Positions 3,470-20,172 of a stretch of 64,000 nt of DNA are shown in pieces. Source of the DNA: Blastococcus tunisiensis (GTDB taxonomy: Bacteria > Actinomycetota > Actinomycetes > Mycobacteriales > Geodermatophilaceae). Under the pieces are notes generated by a model. The model made no database searches. It was not told where the DNA came from and saw only the letters and a program-made list of their open reading frames with translations. Location: contig NZ_FOND01000022.1 in NCBI RefSeq assembly GCF_900112815.1, positions 1 to 64,000 of the forward strand, written 5' to 3'. The position numbers and the translations under genes are program-made. Position 1 is the first letter of the stretch, and each line of letters opens with the position of its first letter.

Positions 3470-3889
3470 ATGAGAGCCCTGGTCGTCGGCGCCCTCATCT
3501 CCACGGGGGCCCTGTGGATCGGCTCACTACTCCAAACGTGGGTGTCGATGCGCGGTCTGCGGAGCATCATCTCGGATCACCTTCGTGGCGCGATCCCCAT
3601 CGTTCCTGCTGCGCCGTTCACGAACCGGTATGCCTACTTGCTCCTTCGCATCACGTTCTATCCGCCGTGGAGACGGGGTGACGTCCCTACCGCGATCCAG
3701 CAGGCCCAAGGCTGGCTGTGGGTCACGATCGGCGCTTCGGTTGCGTTCGGAACCGCCCTCGCGGCCGGGACGGGATGGACACGCTGGGTATGGATCGTTC
3801 CCGCAGGGTCGGTCCCCCTCGTTCTTTGGTCGTGCGCGTCCTACTTGTTCGATGATCGAGGGGAGATGCGCTCGTTCTTTAGGCCCTAG
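3470..3889 (+). CDS. Hypothetical membrane protein (two to three TM segments)
   Basis: 139 residues. The ATG at 3470 is chosen because the protein then opens directly with a hydrophobic segment (ALVVGALISTGALWIGSLL); an upstream in-frame ATG would add a charged, low-complexity leader. Further hydrophobic segments occur at about residues 82-104 and 105-127, separated by WTRW. It may be a small inner-membrane protein. No family recognised and no neighbour suggests a role. Confidence 0.5.
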   Translation: MRALVVGALISTGALWIGSLLQTWVSMRGLRSIISDHLRGAIPIVPAAPFTNRYAYLLLRITFYPPWRRGDVPTAIQQAQGWLWVTIGASVAFGTALAAGTGWTRWVWIVPAGSVPLVLWSCASYLFDDRGEMRSFFRP

Positions 3890-3987
3890 GCCCGGCTGCG
3901 ACTGAAGCCTTGAACCGACCTCGTGGTCCCGGGCCAGAGCAGGCGCCACATGGGTGCCATGTAGGGCTGACCACATAGGCTCGTGTC

Positions 3988-4242
3988 ATGGCTGGAACGC
4001 AGATCACCGTCGAGGAGCTTGCGGAGTTCATGCAGCGTCAGCTGCCCTTGACCTACAACCTGTTCGACGAGAACCGCCACGAGGACAGCCAAGTCAACAC
4101 GGCGTCGTGGGCGCGCGGTCGGATCGACGCCTTCCTGCAAATCATGGCGATCATCGACAAGGACCGTGAGGCGATGCTCCGCGCCGACTGGGTACGGGTC
4201 GTGACCGGCAAGGGATTCATGGAGGGGGACGACGAGGCGTGA
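3988..4242 (+). CDS. Small hypothetical protein
   Basis: 84 residues, predicted helical, with charged and aromatic residues distributed evenly as in a small globular protein. The stop codon TGA (4240-4242) overlaps the GTG start of the next gene (4239) in a GTGA junction, so the two are translationally coupled and probably act together. No family recognised. Paired small genes of this kind on islands are sometimes toxin-immunity or antitoxin-like, but nothing in the sequence proves it. Confidence 0.5.
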   Translation: MAGTQITVEELAEFMQRQLPLTYNLFDENRHEDSQVNTASWARGRIDAFLQIMAIIDKDREAMLRADWVRVVTGKGFMEGDDEA

Positions 4243-4649
4243 TCAACGCGCAGCGCATCACCCCAGGCGAGCAGACCGTCGATGCCATGAACGGCCTCAT
4301 CGCTCGTGATCCGGAGCTCGCTGCCCTATGGGGAATGACGCTTCAGGTCTTGGCCGGTCGTGCCGGGTGGGCCCTGTATCACGGTGAGGATGACGACTAC
4401 GCCTGGCTTTTCGGATGGGAGGGCCAGGGACTGCTGGTCGTGAGTGTGGAGCCGTACGGGCTGGATTGCTTTCACTGGCGCGCGGACACCAACACAACAG
4501 TCAACTCGGCGCGGGAGCTCTGGGAGTGGGCCAAGGAACTTGAAGACCCGGAGGAGGCCGCCGGAGTCAGTGACCTCATCGAGATGCGAACCTCTTTGCG
4601 ACGGGCGCAGGACACAGGGCTCGGTGCAAAGCTGCCTCGCAGCCAGTAG
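4239..4649 (+). CDS. Hypothetical protein coupled to the upstream gene
   Basis: 136 residues starting at a GTG that overlaps the upstream stop. The protein is acidic with several tryptophans (WALYH, YAWLFGWEG, FHWRAD, LWEWAKEL). This resembles small immunity-type or DUF proteins of actinobacteria, but I do not recognise the family. It is the last gene of the left island; the tRNA-Met fragment begins about 220 bp downstream. Third codon positions are visibly richer in A/T than in the chromosomal genes that follow. Confidence 0.5.
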   Translation: MINAQRITPGEQTVDAMNGLIARDPELAALWGMTLQVLAGRAGWALYHGEDDDYAWLFGWEGQGLLVVSVEPYGLDCFHWRADTNTTVNSARELWEWAKELEDPEEAAGVSDLIEMRTSLRRAQDTGLGAKLPRSQ

Positions 4650-4869
4650 GCAATTCTTCGCTCGGCATCACCGTCCTCCACGTACGTCCCCCCGGAGTGG
4701 TGTGCGGTGCAGACCCCGACGGGCCGGATGACTCTGGCTAGACGGTTGTGCTCGGGGTCGCTAGACCCACGCCGACCTGCCCATATGCCCTAGACCCGGG
4801 GACTGGATGCATTTCGGACCCACGCGACCTGCGTTTCCGCAGGTAAGCACAGTTGTCAGACCGTGAGTG

Positions 4870-4914
4870 CTCATAATCCCTGGGTCGTGGGTTCGAGCCC
4901 CACCCGCCCCACCA
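4870..4914 (+). repeat. att site: 3' fragment of an elongator tRNA-Met gene
   Basis: The 45 bp reproduce the 3' part of a tRNA-Met(CAT) gene: anticodon loop CTCATAA, the 3' side of the anticodon stem (TCCC), variable loop, T arm (GTGGG-TTCGAGC-CCCAC), acceptor strand CCGCCCC, discriminator A and an encoded CCA. Upstream of the anticodon loop the sequence no longer pairs, so this is not a functional gene. It is the displaced 3' end left when an element integrates into a tRNA gene. The orientation places the element to the left, with the intact tRNA-Met beyond the left edge. Confidence 0.75.
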
Positions 4915-4935
4915 CCTGCCCACGAGAGGGTGCCC

Positions 4936-5352
4936 GTGCCGTCCGACAGCGTCCTCGCCAGCCGCGTGCGGGCAGTGCTCGACATCCCGCTGCACCGGTT
5001 CCTCGGGATGCAGCTCCGGGATCCCGCCGAACCGGCGGCAGGCATCTGGTTCCCGGTCGCCGCGCCGACGCAGAACCAGGCGGCCGTCCTGCACGGCGGC
5101 GTCGTCTACACGCTGATGGACGTCGCCTCGTTCCTGGCGCTCCTGCCCTCGCTCTCCGACGAGGAGCACGCGGTGACCCACGACCTCACGGTGTCGCTGA
5201 TCCGCCCCGTGGCCGCGGACGCGCGGGTGGACATCACCGGCAGCGTGCTCCGGCGGGGCCGCCAGGTGGCGTTCATGCGGGCCGAGGCCACCGTCGACGG
5301 CCAGGTCGTCGCAGCCGCCCAGGTCACCAAGAGCGTCGTCCGGCTGGGTTGA
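4936..5352 (+). CDS. PaaI-family hotdog thioesterase
   Basis: 138 residues. The hotdog-fold core is visible as QNQAAVLHGGVVYTLMD (the HGG motif of PaaI-like acyl-CoA thioesterases) followed by strands ending in QVTKSVVRL. It would hydrolyse an acyl- or aryl-CoA, releasing CoA in the cytoplasm. Two GTG codons (4930 and 4936) are possible starts; 4936 is preferred because GAGAGG then sits about 6 nt upstream. The gene begins only about 20 bp after the tRNA-Met fragment, so it is the first chromosomal gene after the island. It converges with the dehydrogenase ending at 5470. The physiological substrate is unknown. Confidence 0.75.
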   Translation: MPSDSVLASRVRAVLDIPLHRFLGMQLRDPAEPAAGIWFPVAAPTQNQAAVLHGGVVYTLMDVASFLALLPSLSDEEHAVTHDLTVSLIRPVAADARVDITGSVLRRGRQVAFMRAEATVDGQVVAAAQVTKSVVRLG

Positions 5353-8633: not shown

Positions 8634-11441
8634 TCAGCGGCGCCGCCAGCGCGAACGACCGCGGCGGAGCGCGGCGTCGCGCTGCGCGGCCAGCTGCTCG
8701 AGCTGTTCCGGGGGCGCACCCGCGTCCTCGTAGGCCGTCAGCGCGACGGCGTAGCGCTGCGCGTCCGGCTCGTCGTGCGCGGCCAGCGCCCACAGTGCCT
8801 CGGCGCGAAGCCCCGGCGCGTCCTCGGCCGCGCCCACGGAGAACGCACGCCGCGCAGCGGCCAGCGCGTCGTCACGCCGGCCGAGCGCGGCGAACGCGTC
8901 CGCGCGGGCCAGGTCCACCGCCGCTGCGGCAACGTCCTCGCCGACCGTCCGGTAGCCGGCCTCCGCTACGTCGAACAGTTCCAGCGACCGCTCCGCCATC
9001 CCCGCCCGCACGAGCCGCTCGCCGTGCTCGTGGCGCACCTCGGAGGCGAACGGCAGGTCCTCGTCCTCGTCCAGGTGGGACAGGCACGAGACGCCGGCCG
9101 CCACCGCCTGGGGCAGCTCGTCGCGGGCCTCGTGCACCTGCGCGAGGGTGCGGTAGGCCCGCGCCCGGCCGCCGGGATGCTCCGTGCCGAACACCCGGAT
9201 CGCCCGCTCGGCCAGCGTCAGCGCCTCGTCGAGCAGACCGAACTCCCCGTTGAGCATGGCGAGGTCATGAGCGACCGCGCCCTCCAGCTCGGGGTCGCCG
9301 TCCTCGGCAGCCTGTTCCAGCAGCTCGTCGAGGAGGTCGGCGGCGTTCTGGTCCCGGTCCAGGTCGCGGAAGATCCGCGCCGCCGTCAGGCGACCCCAGG
9401 CGGCGCAGTCGCGCTCCCCGGCCGCGAGGTGCAGGTCGATGCCGGCGAAGGCCGCTGCCAGTCCCTCCTCGGCGCGGTCGCTCCCGACCAACAGCTCGGC
9501 CCGGGCGAGCGCGGAACGGGCCGCCTCGCCGAGGTCGCCGAGCTGCTCGTCCGCCCGCTGGGCGATCGCGAGCACGTCGATGGCCCGGTCGTGCGCCTCC
9601 TCCGCCACCAGGAGCGGGACCAGCACCTCCGCCGCGGCGCGGAGGTCGACGTCGCGACCGGACTCCGTGGCCAGCCGCCAGGCCGCCTCGGCCGCCCGGC
9701 GTGCGCCCGTCAGGTCGCCGGCGACCGAGCGGGCCCACGCCTCGGTCTCCCACGCCTGCGCCACGTCCTCGGGGTCGTCGGCCAGCAGGCGACGGGCCTC
9801 GGCGAAGCGCTCGACCGTGTCGTCGGGCGGCAGCTCCCCCTCGGCTTCCGCGCATGCCAGCACGGCCCACTCGGCCTCCAGCAGCAGCACCCGACCACGG
9901 GCCTGGTCACCGGCCGGGTCCGCAGCTGCCGCGGCGCGGACCACGGCCAGGAAGTGCTGCGCCTCCTCCCCGGCCGGTTCGCCGGTGCGCCCCACGGCCA
10001 CGCGTGCCCGTGACAGCGCCGCCAGCAGCAGCTGGTGCGGGTCCTCCGCCAGCTCCTCGATGGCACGCTCGAACGTCGCGGCGGCTTCCTCCACCCGGTC
10101 CAACCGGAGCAGCCCCTCGGCGACCACCCGTCGCGCGCGAGCGGTACCGGCACGGTCCCCGGCCCGCTCGAACGCCGCCAGGGCGCGTTCGGCGAACTCG
10201 TGCCGCTGGGCCGCGCTGCCCCGCGGCTCGCGCGCCCGGGTCAGGAGGGCCACCGGGTCGTCTTCGCCCGGGTCGTCGGCGCCGGGGAGCGGCTCCGCGG
10301 CGAACGGCGCGGCCGCCGTGCGCACGGGGGACGGTACGACGACGCTCATGGGCGAGGCGGGCAGCGGATCGACGACCGCCGTCGGACGGGTGGCCAGACG
10401 TTCCTCGACGGAGCGGCCGACGTGCTCGGTGCCGTTGCGACGGTCGAAGGCAGCGGCCACCTCGCGGGCCTCGGCGGCGAGAGCGGCGGCCAGCGCCGCG
10501 GCGTCCCCCGCACGGTCCGCCGGCCGTCGCGACAGCTCGCCTGCTCCCGCCTCGTCCCACGCCGTCAGGACGGCGGCCGCCGCCGACACGGCATCCAGCC
10601 GGGCCATCACGTCGAAGAGCCCGCGGTCGCAGACGTCGACGAGCTCGACGACGAGGTCCAGTGCCTCCGGCAGGCGACCGGTGCGCAGCAGGTGCAGCAC
10701 GTGCTGGGACTGCGTCGACACGAGCGACGGGTTTCCCCGCGACAGCCGAAGCCCCCAGACGTGCAGCCGCTCCGCCTCCTCGTCGCTCCCCAGTGCGCGC
10801 AGCGGCGCCAGCAGCTTGGCCAGCGCCCGCGCCGGCTCCTCCGCGCACTCCAGCCGGCCGGCCAGCAGCGGTCGAGCCAGGTCCAGCGCGCGCTCCGGCC
10901 GGCCGGCGTCGAGCGCCAGGGAGATCTCACCCGACACGTCGCAGGCCCGGCAGTCGCTGTACTCGCTCCGTGGCAGCAACCGCCAGGCCCGGTGCGCCTC
11001 GACCGCCTCGGCGATGCGGCCGGTGCATTCCGGGATCACCCAGCGGAGCTTGGCGATGGCGTCGGCTCCCTCTCCGATCGCGGCGTACCGGCGCTCGGCC
11101 TCCCTGATCACCCGGTCGATCTCCTCCAGGGGCATGTCCGGCAGGTCGACCAGCGTCGTCGGCAACCACTTGAGCGCCCAGTAGGTGCCGTGCCGGTCGA
11201 ACCGATCAGGGTGCGCGTCCAACTGCGCGAGGCACCACGTGACGGCGACCAGGGCCTTCTGCGGCTCCCCGCCGTGCATGGCCGCCGAGGCCAGCGCCTC
11301 GCGAGCGGCGAAGGAACCGTCGAGGTCGTTGGCCGCGTCGGCCACCCGCACGGCCTCCTCCGCGACGGCCGTCTTGGCGAAGCCGAACGGCATCTCCTCC
11401 ACCTGGGAGAGCAGCTTCCGTACCGATCTGTCACGCGCCAT
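8634..11441 (-). CDS. Large TPR-repeat protein coupled to an Hsp90 homologue
   Basis: 935 residues. Nearly the whole protein is helical tetratricopeptide-like repeats (pairs of 34-residue helices such as AERALAAFERAGDRAGTARA and LDEALTLAERAIRVFG). A proline/alanine-rich linker near residues 395-440 divides it into two solenoids, and the C-terminus is arginine-rich. The ATG at 11441 overlaps the last 11 nt of the Hsp90 gene, so the two are translationally coupled. In eukaryotes TPR proteins are Hsp90 co-chaperones, so the coupling suggests a dedicated partner. The protein ends without an obvious EEVD-type or membrane signal. Its client proteins cannot be predicted. Confidence 0.75.
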   Translation of the reverse strand: MARDRSVRKLLSQVEEMPFGFAKTAVAEEAVRVADAANDLDGSFAAREALASAAMHGGEPQKALVAVTWCLAQLDAHPDRFDRHGTYWALKWLPTTLVDLPDMPLEEIDRVIREAERRYAAIGEGADAIAKLRWVIPECTGRIAEAVEAHRAWRLLPRSEYSDCRACDVSGEISLALDAGRPERALDLARPLLAGRLECAEEPARALAKLLAPLRALGSDEEAERLHVWGLRLSRGNPSLVSTQSQHVLHLLRTGRLPEALDLVVELVDVCDRGLFDVMARLDAVSAAAAVLTAWDEAGAGELSRRPADRAGDAAALAAALAAEAREVAAAFDRRNGTEHVGRSVEERLATRPTAVVDPLPASPMSVVVPSPVRTAAAPFAAEPLPGADDPGEDDPVALLTRAREPRGSAAQRHEFAERALAAFERAGDRAGTARARRVVAEGLLRLDRVEEAAATFERAIEELAEDPHQLLLAALSRARVAVGRTGEPAGEEAQHFLAVVRAAAAADPAGDQARGRVLLLEAEWAVLACAEAEGELPPDDTVERFAEARRLLADDPEDVAQAWETEAWARSVAGDLTGARRAAEAAWRLATESGRDVDLRAAAEVLVPLLVAEEAHDRAIDVLAIAQRADEQLGDLGEAARSALARAELLVGSDRAEEGLAAAFAGIDLHLAAGERDCAAWGRLTAARIFRDLDRDQNAADLLDELLEQAAEDGDPELEGAVAHDLAMLNGEFGLLDEALTLAERAIRVFGTEHPGGRARAYRTLAQVHEARDELPQAVAAGVSCLSHLDEDEDLPFASEVRHEHGERLVRAGMAERSLELFDVAEAGYRTVGEDVAAAAVDLARADAFAALGRRDDALAAARRAFSVGAAEDAPGLRAEALWALAAHDEPDAQRYAVALTAYEDAGAPPEQLEQLAAQRDAALRRGRSRWRRR

Positions 11442-13212
11442 GGAGGCTCCCTTCGATGAGGCGCCCCAGCGCCCCCGACAGCAACGTCGTCTCGCGGCCG
11501 CGCAGCGGATGCCGGCCGAGCAGCAGTGCCTGCAGGTAAAGGACCTCCACCGCGGTGCGCAGCGCGTCGCCGCCCACCTGCCCGGCGAGCCGTCGCACCA
11601 CGGGGTGTCGCCAGTTGAGGACCAGCGTCGCCTCGCGGGAGACCGGCTGGGCCGCTGCGATCCGTCCGAGCATCGGCCCCCAGAAGGAGTCGGCCACCTG
11701 CCGGGTCTCGTCCAGCTCGCGGGCGAAACGGGCGCCGTCACCGGCGGTGTAGAGCGAAGGCAGCGACGCCGGGCTGAACTCCCGGACCTCGACGTCGCAG
11801 GAGAACGGCGCCAGCACCGTCCGGCAGCGGGCGACCAGCGCGGCAGCCCCTGCCTGGTCGGCCGCAATCACCGGGCGCAGCACCGCCGCCAGGTCTTCCG
11901 GGTCGACGCGCTCGACGTCCACACCGGGCAGCACGTCGGGCAGCCGCAGCAGCAGCTCCTCGTCGTAGGTGTAGCCGGCGTTGACCAGGCAGATCGACTC
12001 CGCGGTGGCCACCTGGGCCATCTGGCTGAAGTCCTCCGCCGTGCCCGCGTACCGCACCGGCCCCCGGGCCATCACCTCGGTGAGCGTCATCCGGCCGAGG
12101 CTGGTGTCGACCGGCAGCCACGGCGCGAAAAGCCGGAGGAGCTCGTCGTCGTGCACCGCCAGCGCCTTGAGCGCCAGGGCATGCACCCGCACCAGCCTCT
12201 GCAGCCGTTGGGGATCGCGGTCGGCCAGTCCGGCGAGCCAGCTGCGCAACGCCGTTCCGAGGCCCTCTCGAACGGCGGCCAGCGTCGCGTCCTCGTACAA
12301 GCCCTCCCTCGACGCGAGCGGCTGCAACGCGCTGGTGTCGACGACGACGCGAACGAAGAACGCCCAGTCGGGGAGCAGCCCGTCGACGGCGTCGGAGAGC
12401 AGCATCCGCTTGAGGTGCACCCGGTGCCGCTGACGCGACGACGGGCTCGGGCTGGTCGACAGGACGAACGCCACCCCGGTCAGGCCGGCCGCCGGCAGTC
12501 CCAGAGGGACGGCATCGAGGAACCGCTCGCCGAGCTCGGCCTCCCCCCAGGCCAGGAGGCGCTCCGTGTCCTGTCCCGCCCACGGCAGCGGCCGGCCGGC
12601 CAGCCGCTCCTCCCCCGCCGAGGTCCGCAGGAGGATCGGCCGCGCGAGCAGTCCTGCGTAGCGCCGGACGAGCTGCCGGACGGTCGCCGCGTGCAGCCGG
12701 TCCTCCAGCCCCGGACGTGCGGTGACCCACACGGTCGTCCCCGGCGTCGCGCGGCCCTCGCCGTCGGCCAGCTCGCGCAGCTCGTACGTTCCGTCGCTGT
12801 GTCCGCGCCAGGACACGCCCGGTCCCCCACGGACGGACCGGGAGACGACGCGGATGTCGTCGCTGACCAGGAAGCAGGAGAGCAGGCCGATCCCGAAGCG
12901 CCCGAGGTAGTCGACATCCGGTCCCAGCAATCCGTCCCGCTTGGACGACGAGCCGATGGTCGCCAGCAGCTCGTGGACCTCCGGAACGGTGAGTCCCACC
13001 CCCTCGTCCTCGACCGACAGCAGCGGAGGACCGCCCGGCCGTTCGTGGCACTCAATGACCACGGGGCGGTCGTCGGCCTCCGGCCCGCGCGCGGCCAGCG
13101 CATCCACAGCGTTCTGGACCAACTCCCGCACATAGACGTCGGGTGAGCTGTAGAGGTGCGCGGACAGCAGGTCGACGACCCCACGCAGATCGACCTGGAA
13201 GGAGTGGCGCAC
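11431..13212 (-). CDS. Hsp90-family chaperone (HtpG-like)
   Basis: 593 residues. The N-terminal GHKL ATPase domain carries ELVQNAVDAL (N-box, Glu/Asn), VEDEGVGLT (G1 box, ADP-binding Asp) and GRFGIGLLSCF (G2 lid). Middle and C-terminal domains follow, but the protein is somewhat shorter than classical HtpG (about 620-640) and diverges there. It should be an ATP-driven cytosolic chaperone. It is followed by a TPR gene overlapping by 11 nt, a pairing I know from other actinobacteria. The start ATG at 13212 gives the typical Hsp90 N-terminus (SFQVDLRGVVDLLS). Confidence 0.85.
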   Translation of the reverse strand: MRHSFQVDLRGVVDLLSAHLYSSPDVYVRELVQNAVDALAARGPEADDRPVVIECHERPGGPPLLSVEDEGVGLTVPEVHELLATIGSSSKRDGLLGPDVDYLGRFGIGLLSCFLVSDDIRVVSRSVRGGPGVSWRGHSDGTYELRELADGEGRATPGTTVWVTARPGLEDRLHAATVRQLVRRYAGLLARPILLRTSAGEERLAGRPLPWAGQDTERLLAWGEAELGERFLDAVPLGLPAAGLTGVAFVLSTSPSPSSRQRHRVHLKRMLLSDAVDGLLPDWAFFVRVVVDTSALQPLASREGLYEDATLAAVREGLGTALRSWLAGLADRDPQRLQRLVRVHALALKALAVHDDELLRLFAPWLPVDTSLGRMTLTEVMARGPVRYAGTAEDFSQMAQVATAESICLVNAGYTYDEELLLRLPDVLPGVDVERVDPEDLAAVLRPVIAADQAGAAALVARCRTVLAPFSCDVEVREFSPASLPSLYTAGDGARFARELDETRQVADSFWGPMLGRIAAAQPVSREATLVLNWRHPVVRRLAGQVGGDALRTAVEVLYLQALLLGRHPLRGRETTLLSGALGRLIEGSLHGA

Positions 13213-16345: not shown

Positions 16346-16651
16346 ATGGATCCGATCAGCCTGCTGGTGGGCGGAGCGCTGCTGGCGGTCGGCTTCGTCG
16401 GTGGTCGGTTCGGACGCCGTCGTGCGGCACCGCCCCCGCCGGTGACCCCGCTGTGCGGCTGCGGGCACACGCTGAGCCAGCACGACCGGCAGACGGACAC
16501 CTGCTACGCCGAGCTGCGCCGCGACACCTTCGACAAGCGCGGTCGCTGGGCCGGCGTGGCCTGGGTGCCGTGCACCTGCCGGCAGTACGTGGGCCCCCGG
16601 CCGATCGACGAGGTCTTCGCCCCCCGGCTCCTCCCGCCGGCCGTCGACTGA
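16346..16651 (+). CDS. Hypothetical membrane-anchored cysteine-rich protein
   Basis: 101 residues. An N-terminal hydrophobic segment (ISLLVGGALLAVGFVGG) precedes an arginine/proline stretch. A domain follows containing CGCGHTLSQHD, a single Cys about 13 residues later and CTCRQY, a spacing of Cys and His compatible with a small zinc ribbon. GGAAGGGGA upstream of the ATG is a strong ribosome-binding site. No function recognised. Confidence 0.55.
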   Translation: MDPISLLVGGALLAVGFVGGRFGRRRAAPPPPVTPLCGCGHTLSQHDRQTDTCYAELRRDTFDKRGRWAGVAWVPCTCRQYVGPRPIDEVFAPRLLPPAVD

Positions 16652-17445: not shown

Positions 17446-18579
17446 ATGACCGGCTGCGGAGCCGAGGTGAGCGGCACACAGCGGGCGTACCGTCCTCCTG
17501 TGGAGGCTGCCGAGACGGCCGATCCGCCGGTCGCAGCAGATGTGCACGCGGCCCTGGCGGCGATCGTGCCCATCGTGCGGCGCATCGTGGCCGCACGGGT
17601 GCCCGACCGCAGCACCGCAGACGACCTCGTCCAGGAGACCCTGGTACGCGTGCTCGCTGCGGCGGACCGCATCGAGCCGGGGATGCTGGAGCCCTACGCC
17701 ATCGTGACGGCACGCAACGTGGTCGCCTCGCTGTGGCGGGAGCAGGACCGGCATCGCCGGAACGAGCACCGCATGGTGGATCTCCTGGCCCCCGAGTCAC
17801 CCGATGCCGACCTGCTGGCCCGGGAGGAGCAGTCTGCGGTCGCGCAGGCGCTCGCCCGCCTGTCCGACCGGGAGCGGGCGACGTTGCTCGCGCACGAGGT
17901 GTCCGGTCAGGACACCCGGTCCCTCGCCGCCGAACTCGGCTCGACCGCCGGCGCGGTCGCCGCCCAGCTGAACCGGGCACGAGCACGGTTGCGGGTGGAG
18001 TACCTCCTGGCCAGCGAGCGGGTCGAGCCGCCGACCGACCGATGCCGTCCCGTGCTCCTGGCGTTGTCCGGCGGGGATCGCCGACGGCAGCGGGAGGTCG
18101 ACGCCGCCCGTCATCTGCTCGAGTGCGACCTCTGCGCCCGGCTGAGCCAGCCGCTGCTCCAGCGGGCCGCGACGCGCGAGGACCGGATCCGCATCGCCAT
18201 CGGCTCCGACGGGGACATCGTGGCCGCCCGGCAGGCCGCGCGGGAACTGGCGTCCCGCCTGGGCTTCGGCCGGACCGACCTCACGCTCATCGCGACCGCG
18301 GTGTCGGAGGTGGCCCGGAACATCGTCCGCTTCGCCGGGTCCGGAGAAGTGGTGGTCGAGTTGCTGGACCACCCGCGCCGCGGCGTGCAGGTTGTCGCTC
18401 GGGACACCGGGCCGGGGATCTCCGATGTGGAGCAGGCGCTGACGGACGGCTACAGCACGTATTCCGGGCTCGGGCTCGGACTGCCCGGCGCCCGACGGTT
18501 GATGGACGAGTTCGCGGTCGCGTCCGAGGTCGGGCAGGGCACGACGGCGACGATGACGAAATGGTGTGGTGAACGATGA
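17446..18579 (+). CDS. ECF-type sigma factor fused to a zinc-motif segment and an RsbT-like serine kinase
   Basis: 377 residues with three parts. Residues about 37-105 are sigma-70 region 2 (DDLVQETLVRVL at 59-70). Residues about 133-185 are region 4 with its helix-turn-helix. Residues 223-230 carry H-x3-C-x2-C, the ZAS anti-sigma zinc motif. Residues about 246-373 are a GHKL ATPase of RsbT type, with the N-box Glu288-x3-Asn292, Asp320-x-Gly-x-Gly and the GLGLGLPGARRLMDEF block typical of RsbT. Normally the RsbT kinase and the sigma factor are separate proteins. Here stressosome kinase and transcription factor would be one molecule. It overlaps the RsbR gene (ATGA), first in a four-gene coupled operon. 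The start is uncertain; GTG codons follow the chosen ATG. Confidence 0.85.
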   Translation: MTGCGAEVSGTQRAYRPPVEAAETADPPVAADVHAALAAIVPIVRRIVAARVPDRSTADDLVQETLVRVLAAADRIEPGMLEPYAIVTARNVVASLWREQDRHRRNEHRMVDLLAPESPDADLLAREEQSAVAQALARLSDRERATLLAHEVSGQDTRSLAAELGSTAGAVAAQLNRARARLRVEYLLASERVEPPTDRCRPVLLALSGGDRRRQREVDAARHLLECDLCARLSQPLLQRAATREDRIRIAIGSDGDIVAARQAARELASRLGFGRTDLTLIATAVSEVARNIVRFAGSGEVVVELLDHPRRGVQVVARDTGPGISDVEQALTDGYSTYSGLGLGLPGARRLMDEFAVASEVGQGTTATMTKWCGER

Positions 18580-19478
18580 ACGGTGACGAGACCTCGGTGA
18601 CGACGGCGGATCTCCCCGCCCCGGACGACGCGGACGGGAACCAGCTGCTCCCCCAGCTCGTCGCCCACCTGCGCGAGCACCGGACCCGACTGCGGCACGA
18701 GTGGTCGCAGCGCATCCAGCAGGCGGGACTGCTGCACGCCATGACGCCGCAGGAGATGGCCGCCGAGACCACCTCGGTCTACGACAACTACGTCGAGGTG
18801 CTCGAGACCGGCAGCGTGGAGGCCCTCCAGCGCTACGCCCGCGACCTGTCCGAACGGATCATCCCGCGGGGGGTGGAGACCCACGAGGTCGTCGGCATCG
18901 TCCTCCTGTTGCGCGACGTCCTCGCCCGATCGCTGTTCGAGAAGTACCAGCGCGACTTCGCGCTGCTCAACCGCGTGCTCGACGCGTACGAGCCGGCAGC
19001 CAACCGGATCGCCAACACCGTCGCCGTCTCCTTCGTGGACGAGCGGGAGCGGGTCATCCGGCAGCAGCAGGACTCCATCCGCGAGCTGTCCACCCCGGTG
19101 CTCCCGGTCCGGGAGCGGCTGCTGATCCTGCCGATCATCGGGGTGCTCGACAGCGAACGCGCTCGTCAGCTGACCGAGCAGCTGCTGACGGGCATCCGGA
19201 CCCACCGGGCCAAGGTCGTCGTCATCGACATCACCGGCGTCCCTGACGTGGACGAGGCGGTGGCCAACCACCTCGTCCAGACCGTCGACGCCTCACGGCT
19301 CATGGGCGCCAGCGTCATCATCACGGGCCTGTCACCCGACATCGCCCAGACCCTCGTCACGATCGGGGTGGACCTCAGCAAGATGGACACGATCGGCGAC
19401 CTCCAGGGCGGCCTCGAGGAGGCCGAGCGGCTGCTCGGCTACGCGGTCGGCCGCGCCGACGGTTCCGGCGTGCCGTGA
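18576..19478 (+). CDS. rsbR: RsbR-type stressosome scaffold protein
   Basis: 300 residues. The N-terminal RsbR_N globin-like helical domain (about 25-165) is joined by a linker helix (RQQQDSIRELSTPVLPV) to a C-terminal STAS domain (about 178-290, RLLILPIIGVLDS ... VVVIDITGVPDVDE). STAS proteins of this type assemble the 1.8-MDa stressosome with RsbS and hold RsbT. Thr173 in ELSTPVLPV matches the RsbT-phosphorylated T171 of Bacillus RsbRA. The T205-equivalent position is Glu227 (PDVDEAVA), a natural phosphomimetic-like change. The start ATG overlaps the sigma-kinase stop. Confidence 0.85.
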   Translation: MNGDETSVTTADLPAPDDADGNQLLPQLVAHLREHRTRLRHEWSQRIQQAGLLHAMTPQEMAAETTSVYDNYVEVLETGSVEALQRYARDLSERIIPRGVETHEVVGIVLLLRDVLARSLFEKYQRDFALLNRVLDAYEPAANRIANTVAVSFVDERERVIRQQQDSIRELSTPVLPVRERLLILPIIGVLDSERARQLTEQLLTGIRTHRAKVVVIDITGVPDVDEAVANHLVQTVDASRLMGASVIITGLSPDIAQTLVTIGVDLSKMDTIGDLQGGLEEAERLLGYAVGRADGSGVP

Positions 19479-19885
19479 CGTCCGGGCCGAAGCTCGTCTC
19501 CATCCTGCGGCAGGGTTCCTACCTGATCGCGTCGATCCACACTGCTCTCGACGACACCCAGATGGACCGGTTCCGCGAGGACCTCATCGAGCAGATCGGC
19601 CGCCACCGCTCGCGGGGCGTGGTCATCGACGTCGCGGCGCTCGACGTCCTCGACTCGTTCGGCACCAGGACCCTCCGCACCATCGGCGAGGTGGCCCGGT
19701 TGCGCGGGGCGCTGACCGTGGTCGTCGGGATCCAGCCCGACGTAGCCCTGGCGATGGTGGCGCTCGGGATGTCCACCGGTGCCATCGCCACCGCCCTCGA
19801 CCTCGAGGAGGGGCTGGAGTACCTCAACGGGCGTCTGGCCGGAGGGGCCGTGAGCCGCCCCGCAGGACGTGTCCCGCCGCCATGA
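19475..19885 (+). CDS. rsbS: RsbS-type STAS-domain stressosome protein
   Basis: 136 residues, single STAS domain starting at GTG 19475 (GTGA overlap with rsbR). The segment DVLDSFGTRTL contains Ser61, equivalent to Ser59 of Bacillus RsbS, the residue phosphorylated by RsbT when stress releases the kinase. The C-terminus has about 20 extra proline/alanine-rich residues. With RsbR it would form the stressosome shell that sequesters the kinase domain fused to the sigma factor. Confidence 0.85.
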   Translation: MTSGPKLVSILRQGSYLIASIHTALDDTQMDRFREDLIEQIGRHRSRGVVIDVAALDVLDSFGTRTLRTIGEVARLRGALTVVVGIQPDVALAMVALGMSTGAIATALDLEEGLEYLNGRLAGGAVSRPAGRVPPP

Positions 19886-20172
19886 GTGCACTGGACGACC
19901 TGACGCGCGACTACCGGGTCGCGTTCCTCCAGTACCTCCCCCGCCGCGCGGAAGCGGCCCTGCACCGCGGCTACGAACTGGGGCGGACGGCGGTGACGGA
20001 GGGGCTCAGCATCCTGGAACTGGTCCGGATCCACCACGAGGTCTTCCTGGAGGTCCTGCGCGAGACCCCCGCCGCAGATCTGCCGGAGGTGGCGACGGCG
20101 GCGTCCGAGTTCCTCCTGGAGGTGCTGGCCACCTTCGACATGACGCAGCGGGGCTTCCTCGACCGGAGATGA
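19882..20172 (+). CDS. RsbU N-terminal-domain-like protein
   Basis: 96 residues, all helical, similar to the N-terminal dimerisation/RsbT-binding domain of the phosphatase RsbU (YLPRRAEAALHRGYELGR ... LSILELVRIHHEVFLE). It has no PP2C phosphatase domain. In Bacillus, freed RsbT binds this domain to switch on RsbU. A free-standing copy would be a natural partner for the RsbT-like part of the upstream fusion, perhaps controlling its release. ATG overlaps the rsbS stop, so it is the fourth coupled gene. Confidence 0.65.
   Translation: MSALDDLTRDYRVAFLQYLPRRAEAALHRGYELGRTAVTEGLSILELVRIHHEVFLEVLRETPAADLPEVATAASEFLLEVLATFDMTQRGFLDRR

Follow-up and report, generated by a model that had tools for sequence, protein, structure and literature searches.

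A sigma factor fused to a stressosome kinase: a variant of the known stressosome

Stressosomes of the RsbR-RsbS-RsbT type are described in Bacillus, Listeria and Vibrio. In Bacillus, binding of RsbT activates RsbU (PMC12143880), and the stressosome outputs named in the portion of that article available to us are carried on RsbU_N proteins rather than on RsbT. A second point of comparison is offered by ECF48, ECF52 and ECF53, in which a sigma factor is joined to a likely ZAS zinc finger and to membrane helices, according to the available text of PMC8999054 (see also PMC5826349). In the excerpts of the literature at hand, we found neither an ECF-RsbT fusion nor a stressosome RsbT that bears a sigma factor; the ECF reclassification (NAR 2021) may list one. 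Here we describe a locus of Blastococcus tunisiensis in which a sigma factor is fused to a stressosome kinase, and which we regard as a variant of the known stressosome. It lies on contig NZ_FOND01000022.1, in a stretch of 64,000 nucleotides that is called the window hereafter and from the first letter of which positions are counted.

The sigT gene and its operon

The open frame at 17446-18579 on the forward strand counts 377 codons from an ATG at 17446. We use sigT, and SigT for its product, as a working label for the fusion, which is distinct from SigT of Streptomyces, and residues are numbered by the 377-residue frame throughout. Sigma-70 region 2 (residues 41-102, 17566..17751; Pfam PF04542 Sigma70_r2, E 3.2e-11) and region 4 (residues 131-182, 17836..17991; PF08281 Sigma70_r4_2, E 6.5e-8) are followed by a ZAS-like zinc segment, predicted from its C-H-C-C ligands (C200-x22-H223-x3-C227-x2-C230, 18043..18135), and by an RsbT-type GHKL kinase domain (residues 245-374, 18178..18567), in which HATPase_c_2 matches residues 258-372 at E 2e-12. 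These features are all encoded on the forward strand, and each of the three Pfam matches exceeds its curated cut-off. The preliminary description of this DNA had placed sigma regions 2 and 4 and a complete RsbT-type kinase domain in a single protein, and the one open frame bears this out. The NCBI model TIGR02937 for ECF sigma-70 factors scores 69.5 bits against a cut-off of 42.9. Other sigma regions gave no Pfam match in SigT at E<=1 except for weak Sigma70_r4 and PhyR_sigma2 matches, and SigT has the make-up of an ECF factor, in which regions 2 and 4 are present while 1.2 and 3 are missing. Region 2 resembles solved sigma domains in a structure model, and the single-chain model of SigT (pTM 0.37) is too loose between domains to position the sigma part against the kinase.

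As for the length of 377 residues given previously, the open frame stands and the start does not: translation probably begins at GTG 17500 rather than at 17446, which would yield a protein of 359 residues (17500..18579, forward strand). A putative -10 element, TACCGT (17488..17493, forward strand), lies 6 bases 5' of this GTG. In actinobacteria, TANNNT is a -10 element of the housekeeping type. We compared the upstream stretches of 28 fused loci, the window and 27 others. In 22 of the 28, an in-frame TANNNT is followed after 6-7 bases by ATG or GTG, 17-21 codons before residue 37, and the pattern occurs in one of the 28 loci in an upstream control stretch. This conservation makes a start at GTG 17500 likely, and the arrangement suggests that the sigT mRNA is leaderless. 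Five of the 29 near-full-length fused copies contain one TAG in the matched stretch, in all five cases before the likely start codon. Scans of the sequence for TTGACA/TATAAT hexamer pairs and for terminators found nothing, and no conserved -35 element or ECF-type autoregulatory promoter was seen by eye in the 28 upstream stretches. Likewise, no conserved linked target gene was seen near the sigT operon among the fetched loci.

Three genes follow sigT on the same strand, and the gene ends overlap by 4 bases at all three junctions of sigT-rsbR-rsbS-rsbU_N, in agreement with the coupling reported previously. The product of rsbR (18576..19478) has a STAS domain (PF01740, E 7.8e-15) and an N-terminal RsbRD_N match below the cut-off, and its nearest solved chains are those of RsbR (9o4h_A, E 6.2e-37). 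That of rsbS (19475..19885) also matches STAS (PF01740, E 3.6e-11) and is nearest to solved RsbS chains (6qcm_A, E 1.3e-22). The kinase gene is hence adjoined by both rsbR and rsbS, as is typical of a stressosome module. The last gene, rsbU_N (19882..20172), encodes 96 residues that match RsbU_N (PF08673, E 7e-17), with no PP2C or other phosphatase domain on the product. It is the sole RsbU_N match in the window's genome, in which no RsbU with a PP2C domain was found.

This gene order recurs in 20 of the 20 loci fetched from the family, including locus L051 of genome G017 with its broken sigT, in all three loci from other families, and in seven of seven named loci, of which L094 and L096 apparently come from genomes already counted. 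The genes flanking the operon in the window are found again at some of the loci but not at others. An rsbR match (E<=1e-40) is present in 30 of 112 genomes of the family, and all 30 belong to the 31 that have sigT. Some other features of the neighbourhoods were recorded on the way. A small Cys-rich frame without Pfam match (16346-16651, forward strand) has counterparts of 71-86% identity upstream of sigT in L034, L035 and L045, that is, in 3 of the 30 fused loci searched. In L099, a second rsbS-like copy (9400-9777), 67% identical over 126 residues to RsbS of the window, lies about 0.7 kb 3' of the RsbU_N match. On the reverse strand of the window, the frame at 11431-13212 resembles HSP90/HtpG by eye.

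Distribution of the fusion and relatives of its parts

Of 112 genomes of the same family (Geodermatophilaceae), 31 match SigT at E<=1e-20, and these are spread over 7 of 12 genera. A single nearly full-length match is found in 29 of the 31, the own genome included, and the other 28 show 72-81% identity. In genome G070 the match covers residues 19-148 only. In G017 (locus L051, around 4000-5120), the sigT match breaks up over different frames, and rsbR, rsbS and rsbU_N still match along their length. Beyond the family, full-length fusions occur in at least 4 of 396 genomes of a phylum sample (own, G196, G316, G380) and at least 4 of 394 genomes of a class sample (own, G196, G517, G685), both counts being lower bounds as four candidates per genome were scored. 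Among the matches listed, the fusion is carried by Modestobacter caceresii and Geodermatophilus aquaeductus (Geodermatophilaceae), by a Nocardioidaceae and a Nocardioides MAG, and, within the Intrasporangiaceae, by an uncultured Tetrasphaera and two Humibacillus xanthopallidus records.

By the Nei-Gojobori method, six pairs gave dN/dS ratios of 0.035-0.32 in the sigma part, 0.083-0.31 in the zinc part and 0.079-0.33 in the kinase part, values that indicate purifying selection on all three. The preliminary description had itself named two outcomes that would undermine it, a frameshift between separate sigma and kinase genes and homologues that are always split. The search over homologues contradicts both, as the fusion recurs in 29 near-full-length copies in the family, is under purifying selection, and exists as a nearly full-length single frame in several families. 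That the fusion is a frameshift or assembly artefact, or that a decayed sigma half is simply carried along by a working RsbT, is accordingly hardly credible. The broken sigT of G017 would fit such readings; single-frame copies in several families and the low dN/dS of the sigma part speak against it, and the artefact in particular can be considered excluded in practice.

In the kinase domain, N292, D320, G322 and G324 are invariant in fused and unfused rows, and the domain has the GHKL fold that the preliminary description had proposed, with the intact N-box and the Mg/ATP aspartate that characterise the RsbT family. R262 is also invariant, as is R266 in the fused rows; we take these two residues to be the equivalents of R19 and R23 of RsbT. 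Both R19 and R23 are reported as contacts with RsbU in the available part of PMC12143880. Each of the 15 fused genomes searched has one RsbT-like match (E<=1e-6), which is the fused domain, and three unfused genomes searched alike have one each; some of these 18 genomes are drafts or MAGs, and the absence of a second copy is therefore not absolute. At L091, a second HATPase-like match (33%) was observed just downstream of rsbT (3585-3932).

The kinase domain might instead be an anti-sigma factor of the SpoIIAB/RsbW type acting in cis on its own sigma domain, with binding of the STAS proteins or of RsbU_N relieving the inhibition and the stressosome serving as an activator. SpoIIAB and RsbW are indeed its best solved-fold matches, and spIIAB is its best NCBIfam match, below the cut-off of that model. 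Since no RsbT chain surfaced among the solved-fold matches, the fold match does not separate the RsbT type from the RsbW type. The nearest homologues found for the domain are stand-alone genes located directly 3' of rsbS, and in a tree that included three long RsbW-type rows, the RsbT and fused rows, 46 in all, fall on one side (81/81, moderate support). By neighbourhood and tree, the SigT kinase groups with stand-alone rsbT beside rsbS, which favours the RsbT type, against the fold matches. Furthermore, RsbW-type proteins served as a negative control in PMC7406223 on the grounds that no interaction of theirs with ECF sigma factors had been described. Altogether, we regard the cis anti-sigma reading as unlikely.

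The zinc segment calls for separate consideration. The H-x3-C-x2-C motif noticed earlier is present as H223-x3-C227-x2-C230, and C200 completes a C-H-C-C set shared without exception by the 18 fused proteins that were aligned. Pfam detects no zinc finger in SigT at E<=1. Overlooked earlier was that this segment is common to sigma relatives that have a hydrophobic helix in place of the kinase. Because C-H-C-C is present in nine of nine sigma relatives without RsbT, the segment is probably older than the fusion. These nine proteins extend 152-226 residues past it, through a hydrophobic stretch and not RsbT, and a C-terminal domain common to them can be made out by eye. Their 19-residue hydropathy means reach 1.7-2.4, against a best value of 1.1 for SigT after residue 240, where hydropathy gives no sign of the transmembrane helix and C-terminal outer domain.

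The segment resembles RsrA, and it could be the real switch, a redox- or metal-responsive anti-sigma element, with RsbT merely parking the protein on the particle. The invariance of the four ligands in fused proteins and their presence in the relatives without RsbT agree with this. There is also a precedent in ECF48, ECF52 and ECF53, with their sigma domain, likely ZAS finger and membrane helices, as far as the portion of PMC8999054 available to us goes. However, the catalytic residues of the kinase and Ser61 of RsbS would then not need to be invariant, and we find the zinc-switch reading improbable.

How the two halves came together can be approached through their trees. In the tree with the long RsbW-type outgroups, branches were very long and the fused rows failed to come together (3 changes), and for these reasons it was rebuilt without those outgroups. 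The resulting tree of the RsbT half comprises 15 fused rows, thinned by hand, and 17 unfused rows; the fused rows make up a single clade (96/89) nested within the stand-alone ones, as drawn with L090 and L091 outside. The tree of the sigma half (15 fused and 9 other rows, L103 being omitted as too distant) unites the fused rows weakly (53/8). In the unfused relatives, rsbT stands on its own within rsbR-rsbS-rsbT operons, which continue with rsbX-like and/or RsbU_N genes. In G278, G311 and G332, the sigma gene with the helix and the separate rsbT are on different contigs. The system likely arose by one exchange, in which an ECF sigma factor with a zinc segment would have given up its membrane sensor, the helix together with the C-terminal domain, for RsbT, with the joint just after the zinc segment.

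Phosphorylation sites, RsbX and RsbU

The residues that would be phosphorylated in the STAS proteins have fared differently. Ser61 of RsbS, at 19655-19657, is equivalent to S59, and all 51 distinct rows have Ser at this position; the acceptor serine of a stressosome RsbS is thus retained. In RsbR of the window, alignment assigns S193 (19152-19154) to the T171 position and E227 (19254-19256) to the T205 position, both on the forward strand; in a set of four RsbR chains, 9o4h has E opposite residue 227, and the other three have A or T there. None of the 38 fused rows has Ser or Thr as the T205 equivalent (Glu in 31, Val in 3, Gln in 2, His in 1 and Gly in 1), versus 12 of 16 unfused rows, and the T171 equivalent is Ser or Thr in 19 of 38 versus 14 of 16; for these counts L033 and L054, initially in the unfused set, were reassigned manually to the fused one, and as the rows are related, they do not represent independent events. 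Four of the 16 unfused rows also have no T205-type site and two have no T171-type site, which indicates that loss of the former is not peculiar to fusions. In Listeria, phosphorylation of Thr209, the T205 equivalent, lowers signalling, and a T209A substitution raises signalling without stress, according to the accessible part of PMC9237128. An acceptor Thr/Ser pair is a usual regulatory trait of RsbR and does not strictly define it. In the fused rows the pair is not kept, and we therefore speak of a module that is a variant of a stressosome, or works like one, rather than of a standard stressosome.

An rsbX-like query taken from G490 found matches in five of six other unfused genomes at E<=2.2e-30, and none in G332. 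Among the 15 fused genomes, the same query gave no match at E<=1e-5 in 11 and weak ones in four (2.7e-8 to 9.4e-6), none of them near the operon. The genome of the window has 18 SpoIIE-type matches, none of which is on the window's contig, and in view of these matches elsewhere in the genome another phosphatase could reset RsbS.

With respect to RsbU, six of the seven RsbU-type proteins scanned from unfused loci have RsbU_N. It is combined with PP2C in four of the seven (L083, L087, L088 and L089), and L086 has PP2C without RsbU_N. In unfused operons, the proteins at L080 768-1586 and L092 5457-6299 have RsbU_N with GAF only and no phosphatase match, and represent further RsbU proteins without the usual output. 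Residue E24 of RsbU_N is invariant in 15 of 15 aligned proteins, and alignment with the RsbU chain 1w53_A, at a weak E of 0.049, places it opposite E24 of that chain. Y28 is replaced by His in the window. Both E24 and Y28 are reported contacts of RsbU with RsbT (PMC12143880, seen in part).

Might the 96-residue protein be the main brake, a soluble anti-sigma factor that sits on the RsbT domain and blocks access to the polymerase, with the stressosome competing for that domain? An RsbU_N match in every fused locus examined, despite the missing phosphatase domain, and the invariant contact E24 would be in keeping with such a role. Nevertheless, conservation among the four proteins is lowest for RsbU_N (40-82% across the compared loci). 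Moreover, RsbT activates RsbU in Bacillus, and the consulted text of PMC12143880 describes no inhibition of RsbT by RsbU. We hold this to be very improbable.

A proposed route from particle to polymerase, and known systems

The reading that we favour, with moderate confidence, is that the four genes form a self-contained stressosome that stores a sigma factor and directly releases it in cis. From the features described above we infer docking, phosphorylation, release and sigma activity as follows. RsbR and RsbS would assemble the usual STAS particle, onto which SigT would dock via its RsbT domain, so that the particle would be a multi-copy anti-sigma store for the ECF domain. Upon stress, the RsbT domain would phosphorylate Ser61 of RsbS, whereby the docking site would be lost. 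The RsbT domain would then leave the particle together with the sigma domain, and the latter would bind the RNA polymerase core. The steps carried out by the RsbU phosphatase, RsbV and RsbW would be dispensable. As for RsbU_N, the other known kind of RsbT partner, it would probably bind the freed RsbT domain, and might keep this domain off the particle, or else dimerise or buffer SigT. Inhibition of the sigma domain may also come from the zinc segment, in which case release from the particle would be insufficient.

The preliminary description had already proposed that stressosome release could liberate a sigma factor without the RsbU-RsbV-RsbW cascade. The bypass of the cascade gains indirect support from the sole RsbT-like domain, the lack of a phosphatase on RsbU_N and the co-occurrence of rsbR. 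That docking blocks the sigma factor and release activates it, we infer. A bolder version, which we consider slightly less likely than not, depicts the particle as a giant multi-copy anti-sigma factor that is discharged of its sigma load by RsbS phosphorylation. In this version the two known brakes, RsbX and the phosphosite T205 of RsbR (in most rows a Glu), would both be missing, and the system would be a direct and perhaps one-shot stress switch from particle to polymerase.

In known stressosomes, the freed RsbT activates a second enzyme, and here the path seems to be shortened to one step. With kinase and sigma factor welded together, transcription would report directly on what leaves the particle and in what amount. 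The fusion further suggests that an ECF sigma factor can swap its C-terminal input module as a whole, with a stressosome plug taking the place of a membrane sensor. Finally, the system is compact, and its four genes could be transplanted and tested.

Among systems in which an ECF sigma factor is freed from sequestration under stress, as proposed here, EcfG-NepR-PhyR of Alphaproteobacteria is a known example (PMC8999054, PMC8103513). It operates with an anti-sigma factor and sigma mimicry by a response regulator, and neither a STAS particle nor an RsbT-type kinase is described for it in the available portions of these sources. In ECF48, ECF52 (e.g. SCO4117) and ECF53, as in SigT, a single chain carries the ECF sigma domain and, after it, a zinc segment, going by the accessible parts of PMC8999054 and PMC5826349; SigT differs in having an RsbT kinase where the helix and C-terminal domain stand in those proteins. 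The nine sigma relatives without RsbT, with their hydrophobic stretch and additional C-terminal domain, are similar in build to these groups. The RsbU N-domain is shared with the RsbU phosphatase, a Moorella GGDEF cyclase and histidine kinases (PMC12143880, consulted in part). In these systems the output is carried by the RsbU_N protein and RsbT acts in trans, whereas here the output is on RsbT itself.

There is also a close resemblance to the RsbR-RsbS-RsbT stressosome of Bacillus, Listeria and Vibrio. Common to both are the STAS proteins RsbR and RsbS with the acceptor serine, an RsbT-type kinase with intact ATP residues and an RsbU N-domain partner encoded in the operon. In contrast to that stressosome, RsbT is here fused to a sigma factor and comes first in the operon, only the N-domain is left of RsbU, rsbX has no strong match, and the Ser or Thr at the T205 position of RsbR, common in the unfused rows, is absent from all of the fused ones.
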